Source of the DNA: Spirochaetaceae bacterium
Lineage (GTDB): Bacteria; Spirochaetota; Spirochaetia; DSM-27196; PWMO01
Assembly (NCBI GenBank): GCA_007693325.1
Contig: REDW01000065.1
Location: forward strand, 1 to 64,000
Direction of reading: 5' to 3'
DNA: 64,000 nucleotides
The first letter of the stretch is position 1; each line of letters begins with the position of its first letter. Positions 8,323-57,623 of this stretch are shown here, one piece after another. The translations under genes were made by a program, and so were the position numbers. The notes beneath the pieces were generated by a model. The model was given only the letters and a program-made list of their open reading frames with translations, did not search any database and was not told where the DNA came from.

Positions 8323-9588
8323 ATGGAGAGCCTGCAGCGCGACAAAATCCTGTTCATCTCGCTGGTTTCACTTCTGGTAGTGCTGGTAACGCTGGGACTG
8401 CTCTCATTCCTCTTTCGCAGCCGCGATCACGATCACCTCTTCATGGAATACCAGGCGGTGCGCATGGCGGCCGCGGCAATGGAGGTATTCCAGCACCAGG
8501 GCGACATCTCAAATGATCAGTTTCCCGACACGGTGCGTGGGTTCGGCGTCTACTCTTCGGACGGAGGTCCGCTGATGGTGCGCGGTTCGGTTCCGGCGGT
8601 ACTACCGCCCACGGTAGTTAACGATCCGGCCCCGTATCAGACAATCATCGACGGCAATACGCTGCGGCTGCTGCGCGTAGTGGGGACCATGTCCTATACG
8701 GAAGGCCGTTCACGCCGCCCCGAGATTCCGGAGAGCTCAACGCCCGAGGCGCGCATGAGCCGCCGCTTCATCGTGCTGGACTACGATATTTCATCGTATC
8801 GCAGCGAGTTCCGCGCGCGGACGTTCTACTGGTCGGGGCTGACCGTGAGCTTCTTTCTGCTGCTGGCCCTGGTGTGGGCGCTCTACCGCCGGGTACAGGC
8901 GTACCAGATCCAGGAGCAGAAACAGCGCGGCCTGGTGCAATTGGGTGCGGCCGCCCGCACGCTTACTCATGAAATCCGCAACCCATTGGGTGCAATCCAG
9001 ATTCAGAACGCCGTGCTCAAGCGCAAGCTTCCCAAAGGTTATCACAGTTCGCTTGAGGTGTTCGATGAGGAGATTGGCCGCATCGCACTGCTGGTTGACC
9101 GGGTACGTGACTTTCTGCAAAGCGGTGCCGGCAACGTTGAAGCGGTGGACATTGTTGAACTGCTGCAGTCGCTGGCGCAGCGCTTCGAGTTCGAGGTTAG
9201 CCTCGAGCTGCCGCAGCACCCGGTAACGGTGGCTTTCGATCGCGCGCGGCTGCGCTCGGTGTTTGAAAACGTGATCAAGAACGCGGGCGAGAGCATGGCC
9301 GGTGATCAGGGAGATCAGTACGTAGAGATTGCAGTCACCGAGGACCGACAACACGCCAGCGTCACTGTCGCGGATCGCGGAGCGGGAGTTCCCAAGGAAG
9401 ATCGTGACCGGATTTTTGATCCGTTCTTCACCACCAAGAGCGGCGGAAGCGGTGTCGGTCTGGCGATCACACGACAGTTTCTGACCATGATGGGAGGCAG
9501 CATCGAGCTGCACGACCGCCCCGGCGGCGGTAGCGAGTTCCGCATTACACTGAGAAAGGAGAACGAGCGTGCGACTGCTGATCGTTGA
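8323..9588 (+). CDS. Membrane sensor histidine kinase, partner of the adjacent sigma-54 activator
   Basis: The 421-residue protein has an N-terminal helix (residues 9-31), a periplasmic sensor region (about 33-168) and a second helix (about 169-188). The dimerisation domain has the phospho-acceptor LTHEIRNPLG (His216). The HATPase domain shows the N box FENVIKNAGES, the G1 box VADRGAGVP and the F/G2 region FDPFFTTKSGGSGVGL. This is the AtoS/ZraS-like class that pairs with NtrC-type regulators. The sensed signal is not apparent. The start at 8323 has a weak ribosome site (AAGAG). The gene overlaps the regulator gene by 20 bases. Confidence 0.9.
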   Translation: MESLQRDKILFISLVSLLVVLVTLGLLSFLFRSRDHDHLFMEYQAVRMAAAAMEVFQHQGDISNDQFPDTVRGFGVYSSDGGPLMVRGSVPAVLPPTVVNDPAPYQTIIDGNTLRLLRVVGTMSYTEGRSRRPEIPESSTPEARMSRRFIVLDYDISSYRSEFRARTFYWSGLTVSFFLLLALVWALYRRVQAYQIQEQKQRGLVQLGAAARTLTHEIRNPLGAIQIQNAVLKRKLPKGYHSSLEVFDEEIGRIALLVDRVRDFLQSGAGNVEAVDIVELLQSLAQRFEFEVSLELPQHPVTVAFDRARLRSVFENVIKNAGESMAGDQGDQYVEIAVTEDRQHASVTVADRGAGVPKEDRDRIFDPFFTTKSGGSGVGLAITRQFLTMMGGSIELHDRPGGGSEFRITLRKENERATADR

Positions 9589-10918: not shown

Positions 10919-11002
10919 ATCGCAATAGATTGCATAAATCGTCGAGTTTTTGTGACTTCTGTGCTACCCTATAGGGCAACACACTGTCGATTGGAGGAAA
11001 CT

Positions 11003-12004
11003 CTGAGTCGGACAACTGGCACCAACACCGGCAAGACGGCCCGTTTGTTACGCAGCACAGATCTCTTCGCTTCGCTCAGCCGGAACGAGCTCACGCTGGT
11101 CAGCGAAGCAAGCGAGGTTGTCGATTTTGGTGCCGGCTCGGTTGTTTTCGAACCCGGCTCGAGTGGTAGCCACCTGTATGTCATTGAGAGCGGCGAAATA
11201 GTCATCCGTTCAGAACTCGATGCCGAGTCGGGCCGCGAGCTCGCCCGCTTCATCGCCGGTGAGGGCTTTGGTGAGCTCGATCTGCTGACGCACGCTGCAC
11301 GCAGCGCGTACGCCATCGCGGCAACCGACAGCCGGGTGGTACGGTTTCCGGCTCACGATCGTGATTTTGAGCAGGTGCTGCACGGGAACCCCGAGACGTC
11401 GGCGCAGATTCTGTTCAAACTGCTGGGAAACGTTGCCGGCAGATTGCGTTCCACCAACAAACTCATCAGCGACAATACCCCGTGGGTGCGCGAGCTTCGC
11501 CGCCAGGTTTTCTTTGACAAGCTGACCGGTCTGTACAACGCCGCGTTTCTCAAGGAGCAGCTGGCATCGTATCGCAAGAATCCACAGAACGGCTTCACGC
11601 TGCTGATGATGAAACCGGACAATTTCAAGGAGATCAACGATAGCTACGGGCACGAGGCCGGTGATGCAACCCTCAAGCGCCTGGCAACCATATTTGGCCG
11701 CGCCATGAAGGATCCTCGTGTGGCAATCCGCTACCGCGGCAACGAACTGGCGGCGCTCCTTCCCGGCCAGGACGCCGGAGCGGCCACCACTGTGGCCCGA
11801 GATCTGGGCGATTCCGTGCGCGCAATGGATATTACCGACTGCACCGGCGGCGCAGCGGTCTCGGTCACCGCCAGCTTCGCTATCGGCTGCTACCCCGAAC
11901 ACCGAGCCCGGACCGACGACCTGGTAACCGATACGCACGCGCTGCTGTTTGAGGCGCGCGCGGCAGGGGGAGACCGGATCCTGCAGCTGGAGGAGCCGTC
12001 GTGA
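11003..12004 (+). CDS. cNMP-binding domain plus degenerate GGDEF protein
   Basis: The protein has about 333 residues. The N-terminal half is a cyclic-nucleotide-binding domain (FGELDLLTHAARSAYA keeps the Glu and Arg of the phosphate-binding cassette). The second half is a GGDEF fold (DKLTGLYN, then DSYGHEAGDATLKRLA), but the signature reads RGNEL in place of GGDEF and no RxxD inhibitory site precedes it. It is therefore probably catalytically dead and may act as receptor or partner. The start is uncertain: an ideal GGAGG at 10993-10997 sits five bases before an in-frame CTG at 11003, whereas the GTG at 10952 falls inside a possible promoter. TTG at 10992 is another option. The last four bases overlap the next gene. 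Confidence 0.8.
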   Translation: MSRTTGTNTGKTARLLRSTDLFASLSRNELTLVSEASEVVDFGAGSVVFEPGSSGSHLYVIESGEIVIRSELDAESGRELARFIAGEGFGELDLLTHAARSAYAIAATDSRVVRFPAHDRDFEQVLHGNPETSAQILFKLLGNVAGRLRSTNKLISDNTPWVRELRRQVFFDKLTGLYNAAFLKEQLASYRKNPQNGFTLLMMKPDNFKEINDSYGHEAGDATLKRLATIFGRAMKDPRVAIRYRGNELAALLPGQDAGAATTVARDLGDSVRAMDITDCTGGAAVSVTASFAIGCYPEHRARTDDLVTDTHALLFEARAAGGDRILQLEEPS

Positions 12005-14196
12005 GTCGAGCCAACGATATCGGTTCCTTCCTGCAAAATGTGGCTATCTTTGCCGATCTGAGCTCCGAGGAGCGCTCACGCATCGCCGCGCTGCTGTCAC
12101 GAGTTGAGTTGAAGGGCGGGCAGCAGCTCTTCCGCGAAGGCGACCGCGGCGAAACGCTCTATATTGTGCGCTCGGGTGAGTGCGCGATTACCGTCAGCCT
12201 TCCCGATGGTCAGGAAATCGATATCACGTCGTTCGGCAGCGGAGATTTCTTCGGTGAGATGTCGGTCTTCGAAGACGCTCCACGCTCTGCCAGCTGCTAC
12301 GCGCGCAGCGATGCGGTGCTCTACGCTCTGACCGAACACGATTTTCACACGTTGCTGGATAACCACCCGTCACTGGCCATGCAGGTGATGTTCCGGATGC
12401 TGACCGCCACCGCACAGCGGCTGGCCAACACCAACGTGTTTCTCAGCGATATGGTTCAGTGGGGTGAGGCCGCGCGCAAACGCGCGGTAACCGACGAGGC
12501 AACCGGGCTGTTCAATCGCCGTTTCCTCGATGAGGCCATTGAAGAGCAGTTCCAGAAGGCACGCACCGCTAACCGCTTTCTGTCGGTGGTGATGCTCGAC
12601 CTTGATCACTTTAACAGCATTAACGACCAGTACGGCCACCCGGTTGGCGATGAGGTGATCAAGGAGGCCGTGTCGGTGTTCCGCCGCCACTTCCGCGACA
12701 GCGATATCGTAGCGCGCTACGGAGGAGACGAGTTCACCATTCTGATGCCGGATACCGGTCCGGCGCTGGCGCTGGAGATCTGCAGCGCAGTCTGCCGCGA
12801 CGTTGCCGCCTTGTCGATTCTGGAGGGACGCGGCGGGAGTATGAGCCGTGTTACCACCAGTCAGGGGATCGCTTCCTATCCGCATCACGGAACAACGGTG
12901 GAACAGGTCAAAGAGCGTGCCGATCAGGCGCTCTACCGCGCCAAGGAAAAGGGGCGCAACCAGGCACTGGTGGCCGAAGGGGCCAACCCTGCAGCCCACG
13001 CAGCTGCCGGTTCAATGATAGCCAAGCACGATATCCCGACCATTGCCGAGAAGAACCGCGTGGTCAACAACATCATCGATGCGCTGGTCAGCCGCAAGCG
13101 CTTCCTGGTTATCGGGCATCAGAACCCCGATGAAGACTGCATCTCGTCGATGGTTTCCATCGGGCTGCTGCTGAGCAAGCTTGCCAAGCCGGTTCTGTTG
13201 TGTACCGCCCCCGAGATTCCGGTACACTTTCGCTACCTGCTCGAGATCTGCCGCTACAACTCGATCGACGTCAACACGCGTTGCGACGGCGTCGATGAAG
13301 CGGTAGACACCCTTATCATCTGCGACTCGGCCAAGCCGTCCATGATCGAATCTAATCCAACTATCGATCAACTGATGGCAGATCCGCGGATACTCAAGAT
13401 CGAGATCGATCATCACCTCGATACCGACAGCCGCTACAGCGGCGATGAAGGCTTCTGCCTGGTAGCGGCGGCTTCATCAGCGGCCGAGTTAATCGGCTAC
13501 CTTGGCTGCAAACTGAGCCTGCGCCGCGACGTCATCCGCGAGTACGATATAGACGAGGTCTTCTCGCGCAACATGGTGCTGGCGGTACTGACCGGTATTG
13601 TCGGGGACACCCAGATGGGCAAGTTCATCAAGAGCAAGAAGGAACGGCGCTTCTACAACATCTTCAGCGGGATGTTCAATCGGCTTCTGTCGCAGAAGAC
13701 TACCAAGCAATCCAACTTCTACAACATGGAGCAGGTGTACTCCGAACTCCGCAGCCTTTCGGCATCGCAGAAAGAACTCTATACCGAGTTGTTCGAGCGC
13801 CGCACGCGAAGCGATTCGGTAGCCTATATCGCCCTCGACGCGCGCGAGAGCCAGGGCGTCTATTCACGTTTCGATATCGACACGGTTGTCTCAGTTGCAC
13901 GCGCAATTGCCGACGAGCTGGCAGAAGAGAGCGGCAAGCTGAGCCTGGTAGCGTATTACGACCACACCAACTCTTCCGACCTGGTCCAATTCCGCATGCG
14001 CCGCAGTGAGAGCTTCAAGGAACTTGATCTGCGCAGTATGCTCTCGGAACTCAACCTGAAGAACGGCGGCGGCCACGAAGGCGCCATCGGTTTTCGTGTA
14101 CCCAAAGGTGAGCTGGAGGATTTCAGCGCTTTTGTTACACAGCTGATCGAGACAGCCGAAGCACGCGTTGCCGCCGCGGAAAAACGCGAAAACTAG
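12001..14196 (+). CDS. cNMP-binding, GGDEF and DHH/DHHA1 fusion protein
   Basis: A 731-residue signalling enzyme. Residues 1-130 are a cyclic-nucleotide-binding domain with an intact cassette (FGEMSVFEDAPRSAS, Arg95). Residues 160-325 are a complete diguanylate cyclase domain: GGDEF at 241-245, with an RxxD product-inhibition site (232-235) at the standard spacing. Residues 360-530 are a DHH phosphoesterase domain (GHQNPDEDC and EIDHHLD with DHH at 470-472). Residues 600-715 are DHHA1 with GGGH at 689-692. DHH/DHHA1 proteins include NrnA nano-RNases and GdpP c-di-AMP phosphodiesterases. The start GTG at 12001 overlaps the upstream stop. Linking a cNMP sensor, a c-di-GMP synthase and a (di)nucleotide hydrolase in one chain is unusual; the hydrolysed substrate is unknown. 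Confidence 0.92.
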   Translation: MSRANDIGSFLQNVAIFADLSSEERSRIAALLSRVELKGGQQLFREGDRGETLYIVRSGECAITVSLPDGQEIDITSFGSGDFFGEMSVFEDAPRSASCYARSDAVLYALTEHDFHTLLDNHPSLAMQVMFRMLTATAQRLANTNVFLSDMVQWGEAARKRAVTDEATGLFNRRFLDEAIEEQFQKARTANRFLSVVMLDLDHFNSINDQYGHPVGDEVIKEAVSVFRRHFRDSDIVARYGGDEFTILMPDTGPALALEICSAVCRDVAALSILEGRGGSMSRVTTSQGIASYPHHGTTVEQVKERADQALYRAKEKGRNQALVAEGANPAAHAAAGSMIAKHDIPTIAEKNRVVNNIIDALVSRKRFLVIGHQNPDEDCISSMVSIGLLLSKLAKPVLLCTAPEIPVHFRYLLEICRYNSIDVNTRCDGVDEAVDTLIICDSAKPSMIESNPTIDQLMADPRILKIEIDHHLDTDSRYSGDEGFCLVAAASSAAELIGYLGCKLSLRRDVIREYDIDEVFSRNMVLAVLTGIVGDTQMGKFIKSKKERRFYNIFSGMFNRLLSQKTTKQSNFYNMEQVYSELRSLSASQKELYTELFERRTRSDSVAYIALDARESQGVYSRFDIDTVVSVARAIADELAEESGKLSLVAYYDHTNSSDLVQFRMRRSESFKELDLRSMLSELNLKNGGGHEGAIGFRVPKGELEDFSAFVTQLIETAEARVAAAEKREN

Positions 14197-55484: not shown

Positions 55485-57623
55485 CTACTTCTCGGTCATC
55501 ACCCAGACACCATCCCATCCGGCCGGTGGTGCCTGTTGCAGCTTCTGACAGCGTGCCAGATAGCGGGCCGCCGGTGGATCGCGGTCTGCTATCGGCGCAA
55601 ATGCCGCCTCGGCAGCCGCAAAACTGCCACGATAGTAGTTCTGCAACCCCTGCTCGAATTGTTTCAACCGATCCGCGTGCAGCTGATAGTCGGATTCAAA
55701 AAACGGTTCAAAAACCACCACCGCTTCCTTACGCCCCACCACCGCTACCCTCGACAGCTCTCGCGCGCGGAACTCCCCCTGGACCTGCTGCCACGTTGCC
55801 TGTGAGATCATGGTATAGGTACCGAACTGCTTATTGATGCCTTCCAGCCGCGCCGCGAGGTTGACCGCGTCACCGAGCATCGTGTAATCAAACCGCGTGC
55901 GCGATCCCATGTTGCCGACAACCGCCGGACCGCTGTTTATTCCGATGCGCATGTGCAGCTCTTTGCCGGTTCTCGCGGCAAACTGCGGGCGGAGCTCCGC
56001 GAGCCTGGCCTGCGCCCGCAGCGCGGCGCGTACGCAGCGCAGCGCGTGGTCATCCTGAGTCAGCGGCGCATTCCAGAACGCAATAATCGCGTCACCTTCG
56101 TACTTGTCGACGGTTCCGCCCTCGTCATGGATGATATCGGTCATCGCCGAAAGGTAGTCATTCAGCAAGGCGGTCAGCTCCTCGGGAGACAATCCTTCGG
56201 AGAGCGAGGTGAAGCCCTCCAGATCCGAGAAGAAGATCGACAGTTGGCGGCGCTCGCCTCCCAGGCGCAGACGCTGCGGGTCCTGGATCAAGTCTTCGAT
56301 TACCGCCGGACTCAGATACTGCTGGAAGGCGTTCTTGATATAGCGCTTCTGTTTGCCCTCGGTGGCGTAGTTGGCAACGTTGGCGCCTACCAGGGCCAAC
56401 GCTACCCCCACGGTAGGAACCATCAGAGGAACCCAGTACCCAACGGCGTAGCCGGCAAACGCCGCAGCCGCCGGCAGCGGAAGGAAGACAGCGTAGACAA
56501 TCACACTGCGTCCGGCACCCGAGACAACCGAACCCACTATGGAGGCGGCGATGACCAGCAGCAGAACCAGGGCTACGGTCATCCACGGAGACACCGGCCG
56601 CATGAAATCGTCGGACAGCAGGTTCTCGAGCATGGTAGCGTGTACATCCACGCCGGGAACCACCGAGGTAATCGGTGACGTGCGCAGGTCAAACAGGCCC
56701 GGCGCCGAGAAGCCGAAGAGCACGTAGGCGTCATGCAGTTCTTGCGGGTCAACCAGCGGGGTCTCGCCGCTTTGCAGCTCGATCTCGCTCTGCAGGATGG
56801 CAGCAGCGCTGAAATCCCGATGCCGCCCGGCCTGGTTCTTGAAGTGCAGCACTGCGTTGCCGCTGCGATCCAGCACTATAGGCCGGCCGTCCACGTGCAG
56901 AGCACCGTCGCTGCACACCAGCTCTACCGGTTCTCCGGCGTGGGCGCCACGTTCCTGGCCGGCGAGCCAGGCCGCCAGACCCAACGAGGGGACCACCACA
57001 TCGTCAAACATGATAACCGGGCGCACGCGTCTATAGACACCGTCGCGGTCTGGCTGCAGTTGCACGTTAGCCAGGTAACGGCTGGACTGCGCAACCTCCG
57101 CGATTGGAAACGCTGCGCGTGGGTAGCGGCGCAGCAATTGCTGCTGGTCACTGCATTGCTGCAACGTCAGATTCGGGCGCGGCACGTACTCGGGCCACTG
57201 CAGTGAATCACCGGTCTGCGTGCCAAAAAATGCCGACGCAACAAAACGATCCATTGAAGCGATTGCCGAGCCGAAGCTCTGGTCATCAAAAACGCCGTAA
57301 CCCGAGGGCTCCAGATAGAGCACGTCAAAGGCAAGCGCGCGCGCCTCGGCACGCGCGATAAAGCTGACAATGTAGGAGTAGACTTCACGCGGCCAGGGCC
57401 ACGTCAGCCCCATAGCGTCGCGCGCCCAATCGAGGCTGTCCTGGTCGAGCAGGATCAGAACCACCCGCGAATCGGGTTCGCGCTGCGGCGCAAAGGTGCG
57501 CGCACGCGCGTCCCAGGTGCGCGCTTCAAACAGCTCCAGCGCGCCGGTGGACCACAGCAACAGTGCCACCACAGCGGCGGCAACGCCTACAAGCAGCCCG
57601 CGCAGCAGCTTTGATTGCGCCAT
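55485..57623 (-). CDS. CHASE2-domain class III adenylate cyclase
   Basis: The 712-residue protein has an N-terminal helix and an extracytoplasmic CHASE2 sensor (about 30-320, with VVLILLDQDSLDWARDAMGL and FDVLYLEPSG near its start). About three helices follow (340-425), then a class III cyclase domain (about 455-640). Metal-binding Asp residues are in FFSDLEGFTS and KYEGDAIIAF. The Lys in DKYEGD favours ATP, and YTMLGDAVNLAARLE completes the site. It should make cAMP in response to an envelope signal. The cNMP-binding proteins at 11-14 kb are candidate receivers. A helical C-terminal tail (residues 645-712) is unassigned. Confidence 0.93.
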   Translation of the reverse strand: MAQSKLLRGLLVGVAAAVVALLLWSTGALELFEARTWDARARTFAPQREPDSRVVLILLDQDSLDWARDAMGLTWPWPREVYSYIVSFIARAEARALAFDVLYLEPSGYGVFDDQSFGSAIASMDRFVASAFFGTQTGDSLQWPEYVPRPNLTLQQCSDQQQLLRRYPRAAFPIAEVAQSSRYLANVQLQPDRDGVYRRVRPVIMFDDVVVPSLGLAAWLAGQERGAHAGEPVELVCSDGALHVDGRPIVLDRSGNAVLHFKNQAGRHRDFSAAAILQSEIELQSGETPLVDPQELHDAYVLFGFSAPGLFDLRTSPITSVVPGVDVHATMLENLLSDDFMRPVSPWMTVALVLLLVIAASIVGSVVSGAGRSVIVYAVFLPLPAAAAFAGYAVGYWVPLMVPTVGVALALVGANVANYATEGKQKRYIKNAFQQYLSPAVIEDLIQDPQRLRLGGERRQLSIFFSDLEGFTSLSEGLSPEELTALLNDYLSAMTDIIHDEGGTVDKYEGDAIIAFWNAPLTQDDHALRCVRAALRAQARLAELRPQFAARTGKELHMRIGINSGPAVVGNMGSRTRFDYTMLGDAVNLAARLEGINKQFGTYTMISQATWQQVQGEFRARELSRVAVVGRKEAVVVFEPFFESDYQLHADRLKQFEQGLQNYYRGSFAAAEAAFAPIADRDPPAARYLARCQKLQQAPPAGWDGVWVMTEK

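Follow-up and report, generated by a model that had tools for sequence, protein, structure and literature searches.

A conserved pair of cyclic-nucleotide-binding GGDEF proteins in Spirochaetota, comprising a pseudo-cyclase and a predicted diguanylate cyclase that can be fused to a DHH/DHHA1 module

Two overlapping genes of an uncultured Spirochaetaceae bacterium, here named P1 and P2, probably let cAMP or cGMP control other signal molecules. We lean slightly towards reading them as a heteromeric, cNMP-gated c-di-GMP synthase, in which the catalytically dead P1 would hold GTP without metal and set the activity of P2, and the fused DHH module of P2 would cut a dinucleotide. This reading builds on the domain make-up, conservation, obligate pairing and natural fusions seen by sequence analysis and comparative genomics. 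The genes were identified in a 64,000-nucleotide stretch of contig REDW01000065.1, the window (Table 1). Both open reading frames, of 350 aa (P1) and 731 aa (P2), begin with GTG and share 4 bp, GTGA, the four-base overlap that had been noted before. The GGAGGAG ahead of the P2 start likely is its ribosome-binding site. The start of P1 is ambiguous: the position first proposed, a CTG at 11003 preceded by GGAGG, is possible, and GTG 10952 and TTG 10991 are also candidates. The histidine kinase and the NtrC-type regulator upstream were rejected as parts of the module; their conservation is confined to the closest relatives.

Table 1. Features of the P1/P2 locus and its surroundings in the window
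Feature	Position	Strand	Basis or remark
Sensor histidine kinase, upstream	8323..9588	+	kept in nearest relatives only
NtrC-type sigma-54 response regulator, ends 33 bp before P1 ORF	9569..10918	+	
P1, cNMP-binding and pseudo-GGDEF	10952..12004	+	ORF, Pfam; start 10991 or 11003 possible
P1 cyclic-nucleotide-binding domain, phosphate cassette FGELDLLTHAARSA	11120..11377	+	Pfam PF00027
P1 degenerate GGDEF domain	11510..11974	+	Pfam PF00990
Lys221 codon, first metal-binding Asp replaced	11612..11614	+	alignment
RGNEL where GGDEF is expected, P1	11735..11749	+	alignment
GGAGGAG, putative P2 ribosome-binding site within P1	11989..11995	+	sequence
P2, cNMP-binding, GGDEF, DHH and DHHA1, 731 aa	12001..14196	+	ORF, Pfam, model
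P2 cyclic-nucleotide-binding domain FFGEMSVFEDAPRSA	12103..12366	+	Pfam PF00027
P2 intact GGDEF domain	12484..12963	+	Pfam PF00990; catalytic residues invariant
RDSD, I-site (product-inhibition) RxxD motif, P2	12694..12705	+	sequence
GGDEF motif, P2	12721..12735	+	53/53 relatives
P2 DHH domain, motifs HQNPDED, CDSAK, IDHH, GDT	13102..13599	+	Pfam PF01368, alignment
P2 DHHA1 domain, GGGHEGA	13858..14151	+	Pfam PF02272, alignment
Nucleotide cyclase of class III with CHASE2, which may supply the ligand	55485..57623	-	Pfam

P2 has the composition of the original prediction: Pfam assigned cNMP_binding (6.2e-24, residues 35-122), GGDEF (3.6e-47), DHH (2.5e-9) and DHHA1 (2.7e-7) domains, all above cut-offs, and an RxxD motif accompanies the GGDEF. 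The cNMP phosphate cassette is retained in relatives of the N-terminal half of P2 (P2N), with Glu in 51/53 and the Arg, Ser and Ala in all 53. An intact cassette does not always mean cAMP binding. GGDEF is present in 53/53 P2N relatives, and D200, D202, N208, D217, K315 and R319 are invariant in 40 relatives. Hence P2 carries what defines a canonical diguanylate cyclase, the GGDEF motif, metal acids, guanine contacts and the phosphate-binding Lys and Arg, and is predicted to be an intact, complete c-di-GMP synthase. The RDSD sits five residues before GGDEF; its Arg is kept in 36/53 and its Asp in 42/53 relatives. The serine that Hypr enzymes have in place of the guanine-contact Asp was not found, D217 being invariant in the 40 sequences, and P2 was rejected as a Hypr/cGAMP synthase on this ground. 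A full-length model of P2 is confident within the domains and of low confidence in the linker 142-170.

The distribution of the pair was surveyed with profiles of P1 and P2N in 393 evenly drawn Spirochaetota genomes. P1-type and P2-type matches occurred in the identical 80/393 genomes, which are related, and the counts are not independent events. P1 is located directly upstream of 93/99 P2-type copies, on the same strand and in the same order; the genomes of the six other copies also hold an unpaired P1 match. In a Treponema-group genome (G330), the pair is 93-98% identical to that of T. vincentii. Nine genomes (L281-L289) encode P1 and P2N in a single ORF of 647-687 aa with the pseudo-domain first, and in one of these fusions Pfam recognised the cNMP domain twice and the GGDEF domain twice. 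On comparative grounds, P1 and P2 are an obligate pair. Because natural one-chain fusions exist, which is strong evidence for joint work, we infer that P1 and P2 form a complex. The conservation of a P1-type protein beside P2, a check proposed with the first description, was confirmed, and the pair is no peculiarity of this locus. A role of the pseudo-enzyme as regulatory partner, proposed from the single locus, gains support from the co-occurrence in 80/80 genomes, the adjacency, the fusions and an invariant lysine described below.

The DHH/DHHA1 module has the motifs HQNPDED, CDSAK, IDHH, GDT and GGGH. In 54 relatives, the key residues vary little or not at all and GGGH-GA is invariant, so that the claim of intact cyclase and hydrolase modules in P2 is supported by conserved catalytic residues in both. 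Strong DHH matches were found in 59/393 genomes, 52 of which also have the P1/P2 pair (odds ratio 81, uncorrected for kinship), and were absent from 28/80 pair-bearing genomes. Of 60 DHH copies, 19 directly follow P2N, fused or as the next gene; the Treponema group has a standalone DHH gene unlinked to the pair. Judged by this distribution, the module is a third, separable part that is optional to the pair. Its fold was predicted with a mean pLDDT of 85 and is similarly close to TM1595, GdpP, Borrelia DhhP and NrnA, with none separated as nearest; by sequence, the DHH profile is closest to GdpP. A closed Treponema-group genome of 1.1 Mb (G101, locus L214) contains the DHH gene and DAC and has neither the P1/P2 pair nor EAL. 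The standalone gene adjoins queH (epoxyqueuosine reductase) in the Treponema group (L211:5841-6548 and eight further loci), and it is flanked by SpoIIE-phosphatase/TPR and sulfatase-modifying-factor-like proteins in several families (L202:6044-8287, L188, L193-L195 and L198). All these neighbours were discarded as functional partners and read as lineage synteny.

The host encodes two DAC and six EAL domains and, judged by the DAC domains, makes c-di-AMP. DAC is present in 45/46 genomes of the host order and in 58/59 DHH-positive genomes; a domain that is near-universal does not by itself point to c-di-AMP as the substrate of the DHH module. EAL was detected in 49/59 DHH-positive genomes. The ten without EAL include closed genomes and three with a P2-DHH fusion (G157, G183 and G339), and pGpG from EAL enzymes is therefore not the general DHH substrate. 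This weakens pGpG clean-up as the sole DHH role and leaves the suggested degradation of the unit's own breakdown product unsupported as a general role. Candidate substrates are c-di-AMP and linear dinucleotides or short RNA, c-di-AMP being marginally preferred to linear pNpN, and a role limited to pGpG clean-up is disfavoured. It is possible, if doubtful, that the module is a nanoRNase/pGpG hydrolase that would end c-di-GMP turnover or recycle short RNA, the fusion keeping the local linear product low. No Orn was found above the curated cut-off in the 46 genomes of the host order, where c-di-GMP signalling is present, and known DHH nanoRNases substitute for Orn (PMC6256023, PMC9757072). The six EAL domains of the host would yield pGpG, and the closest fold, T. 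maritima TM1595, was solved with pApA. Against this function stand the EAL-less genomes, including the three with fusions, and the several further DHH proteins encoded by the host and its relatives. A cleavage of c-di-GMP itself, by which P2 would both make and break one messenger in a switchable manner, is improbable: according to PMC9757072, GdpP proteins that have been characterised act specifically on c-di-AMP, whereas the GdpP catalytic domain was crystallised with c-di-GMP (5xt3) and some fusion-bearing genomes lack EAL, which was surveyed here as the c-di-GMP hydrolase domain, HD-GYP being another.

P1 was recognised by Pfam as cNMP_binding (2.8e-14) and GGDEF (5.3e-29), above cut-offs. 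Direct alignment placed its RYRGNEL exactly on RYGGDEF of P2, in agreement with the first description of P1 as a protein with a cNMP cassette and RGNEL instead of GGDEF. The phosphate cassette has its Glu in 39/43 and its Arg in 36/43 relatives. The first metal-binding Asp is a Lys in 62/62 P1 sequences versus Asp in 73/73 P2N sequences. The Lys is also present in all nine P1 halves of the natural fusions, and unclassified other GGDEF sequences with this Lys are nearly all partial P1 copies. The GGDEF site reads RGNEL, RGDEF, MGNEL or similar in the family; RGDEF, which retains the second metal residue, occurs in 18/62 sequences. The basic pair of YxAKxxGR is changed to R and G, whereas P2N keeps K and R. 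Thus, P1 has neither the metal-binding acids nor the GGDEF of a canonical diguanylate cyclase. Guanine is contacted by an Asn and an Asp in known cyclases such as PleD; the corresponding residues are kept in P1 (Asn 60/62, Asp 62/62). When 43 relatives are aligned, the motif K-P-D-N-F-K..N-D.[YF]-G-H-[ED]..G-D shows hardly any variation. Compared with one 96%-identical relative, dN/dS is 0.127 overall and 0.085 in the pseudo-GGDEF half. A decaying pseudogene was rejected on a dN/dS of about 0.1 and the invariant motif; by its sequence, P1 is a conserved, catalytically dead cyclase look-alike and not a worn-out copy. Lost metal ligands, kept base contacts and a fixed Lys would fit guanine-nucleotide binding without catalysis. 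P1 and P2N are homologous along the whole length with 29% identity and therefore arose by duplication. This homology and the unpaired copies in a few genomes would also suit ordinary, independent cNMP-controlled proteins inherited as an operon after duplication, with P1 as the decaying copy, a very improbable explanation in view of the purifying selection on P1, its specific motif KPDNFK, its fusion to P2N in nine genomes and the one Lys in all sequences, which decay would not leave.

In the heteromeric synthase that we favour, the two CRP-like domains would bind cAMP or cGMP supplied by one of the host's class III cyclases (ten matches), and the cNMP-bound P1-P2 complex would alter its cyclase output, with P2 synthesising c-di-GMP. 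P1, with no divalent metal, would hold a guanine nucleotide, GTP being the likeliest, and set the activity of P2. GTP-loaded P1 may serve as a second input, and the complex would read cNMP and GTP. The fused DHH/DHHA1 module would hydrolyse another dinucleotide; one signal would raise one dinucleotide and lower another. Predicted elements of this mechanism are complex formation, the ligand, GTP binding by P1 and the direction of control. The cNMP-gated unit of the original prediction is favoured by the comparative evidence. A more far-reaching version is tentative and on balance unlikely: a single complex in which cAMP or cGMP leads to c-di-GMP synthesis and c-di-AMP destruction while a metal-free pseudo-cyclase reads the GTP pool, joining three to four nucleotide signals.

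Class III nucleotide cyclase domains gave ten matches in the 3.5-Mb host genome, including one in the window (55719-56246), pointing to a heavy use of cAMP/cGMP by the host. Genes for CHASE2 and class III cyclase proteins are located within about 5 kb of a DHH gene at seven loci (L188, L193-L196, L198 and L202), which may derive from one ancestral arrangement. At L195 and L202, the CHASE2 cyclase is directly upstream of DHH on the same strand, with a gap of about 80-110 bp. This neighbourhood links the DHH family with the synthesis of cAMP/cGMP. The cyclase in the window has the same architecture and had been proposed as ligand source; the CHASE2-DHH link of other lineages agrees with this, but the link to this specific cyclase is weak because the genome has ten matches. 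In another spirochaete, a P1-P2-DHH cluster is followed at a distance of about 7 kb downstream by a CHASE2-like reading frame (L043:9752-10636).

Related systems are known. GdpP/YybT (COG3887; PAS-GGDEF-DHH-DHHA1) has a GGDEF ahead of DHH-DHHA1, as in P2. Its GGDEF is degenerate, whereas that of P2 is intact, and it has an N-terminal PAS and membrane helices where P2 has a cNMP domain and is paired with a separate pseudo-cyclase. Pfam detected no PAS domain in P2, and its N-terminus is hydrophilic by eye, apparently without a membrane segment. Bd1971 of Bdellovibrio (cNMP-EAL) binds cNMP in a CRP-like domain, and both dimer sites must be filled (PMC6717892). It resembles P2 in the gating of a c-di-GMP enzyme by such a domain, a gating predicted for P2, whose cassette has the Glu and Arg. 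Unlike P2, which has GGDEF and DHH-DHHA1 and no EAL, Bd1971 gates an EAL phosphodiesterase without DHH or a partner pseudo-enzyme. Lcd1 of Leptospira (cAMP-GAF-GGDEF) is a cAMP-activated diguanylate cyclase of a spirochaete, as cited in PMC8846402, and cyclic-nucleotide control of such a cyclase is predicted for P2. Lcd1 reads cAMP by GAF and has neither DHH nor a pseudo-cyclase. For Caulobacter CC_3396/PdeA and Pseudomonas FimX, a dead GGDEF was proposed to control the enzyme by GTP binding (as cited in PMC12943098 and PMC8846402). P1 may be similar, judged by residue conservation; their dead domain is in the same chain as EAL, whereas P1, in which a Lys occupies the metal site, is proposed to act on a partner with an active GGDEF. 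Standalone DHH-DHHA1 proteins (TM1595, Borrelia DhhP, NrnA/Pde2 and Rv2837c) are the nearest folds to the C-terminal module of P2 and share complete catalytic motifs. The P2 module is larger (about 390 aa with extra segments versus about 320 aa), with 15-20% identity, and unlike the NrnA/DhhP type it is fused to cNMP-GGDEF or clustered with it, being standalone in some relatives.

The components are known singly from Bd1971, Lcd1, PdeA/FimX and GdpP. No description of the cNMP-GGDEF-DHH-DHHA1 architecture, of its combination with a pseudo-cyclase partner or of that pseudo-cyclase family was found in the open-access literature, with few subscription papers covered. If the proposed mechanism is true, the pair would be a direct junction from cAMP/cGMP to c-di-GMP and possibly to c-di-AMP, and P1 would define a family of obligate pseudo-cyclase partners with Lys in place of the metal-binding Asp. 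The natural one-chain fusions are ready constructs for structure work. An orphan DHH family, present even in a closed 1.1-Mb genome of the Treponema group, gains a testable context, and the P1/P2 pair is present in Treponema vincentii too.
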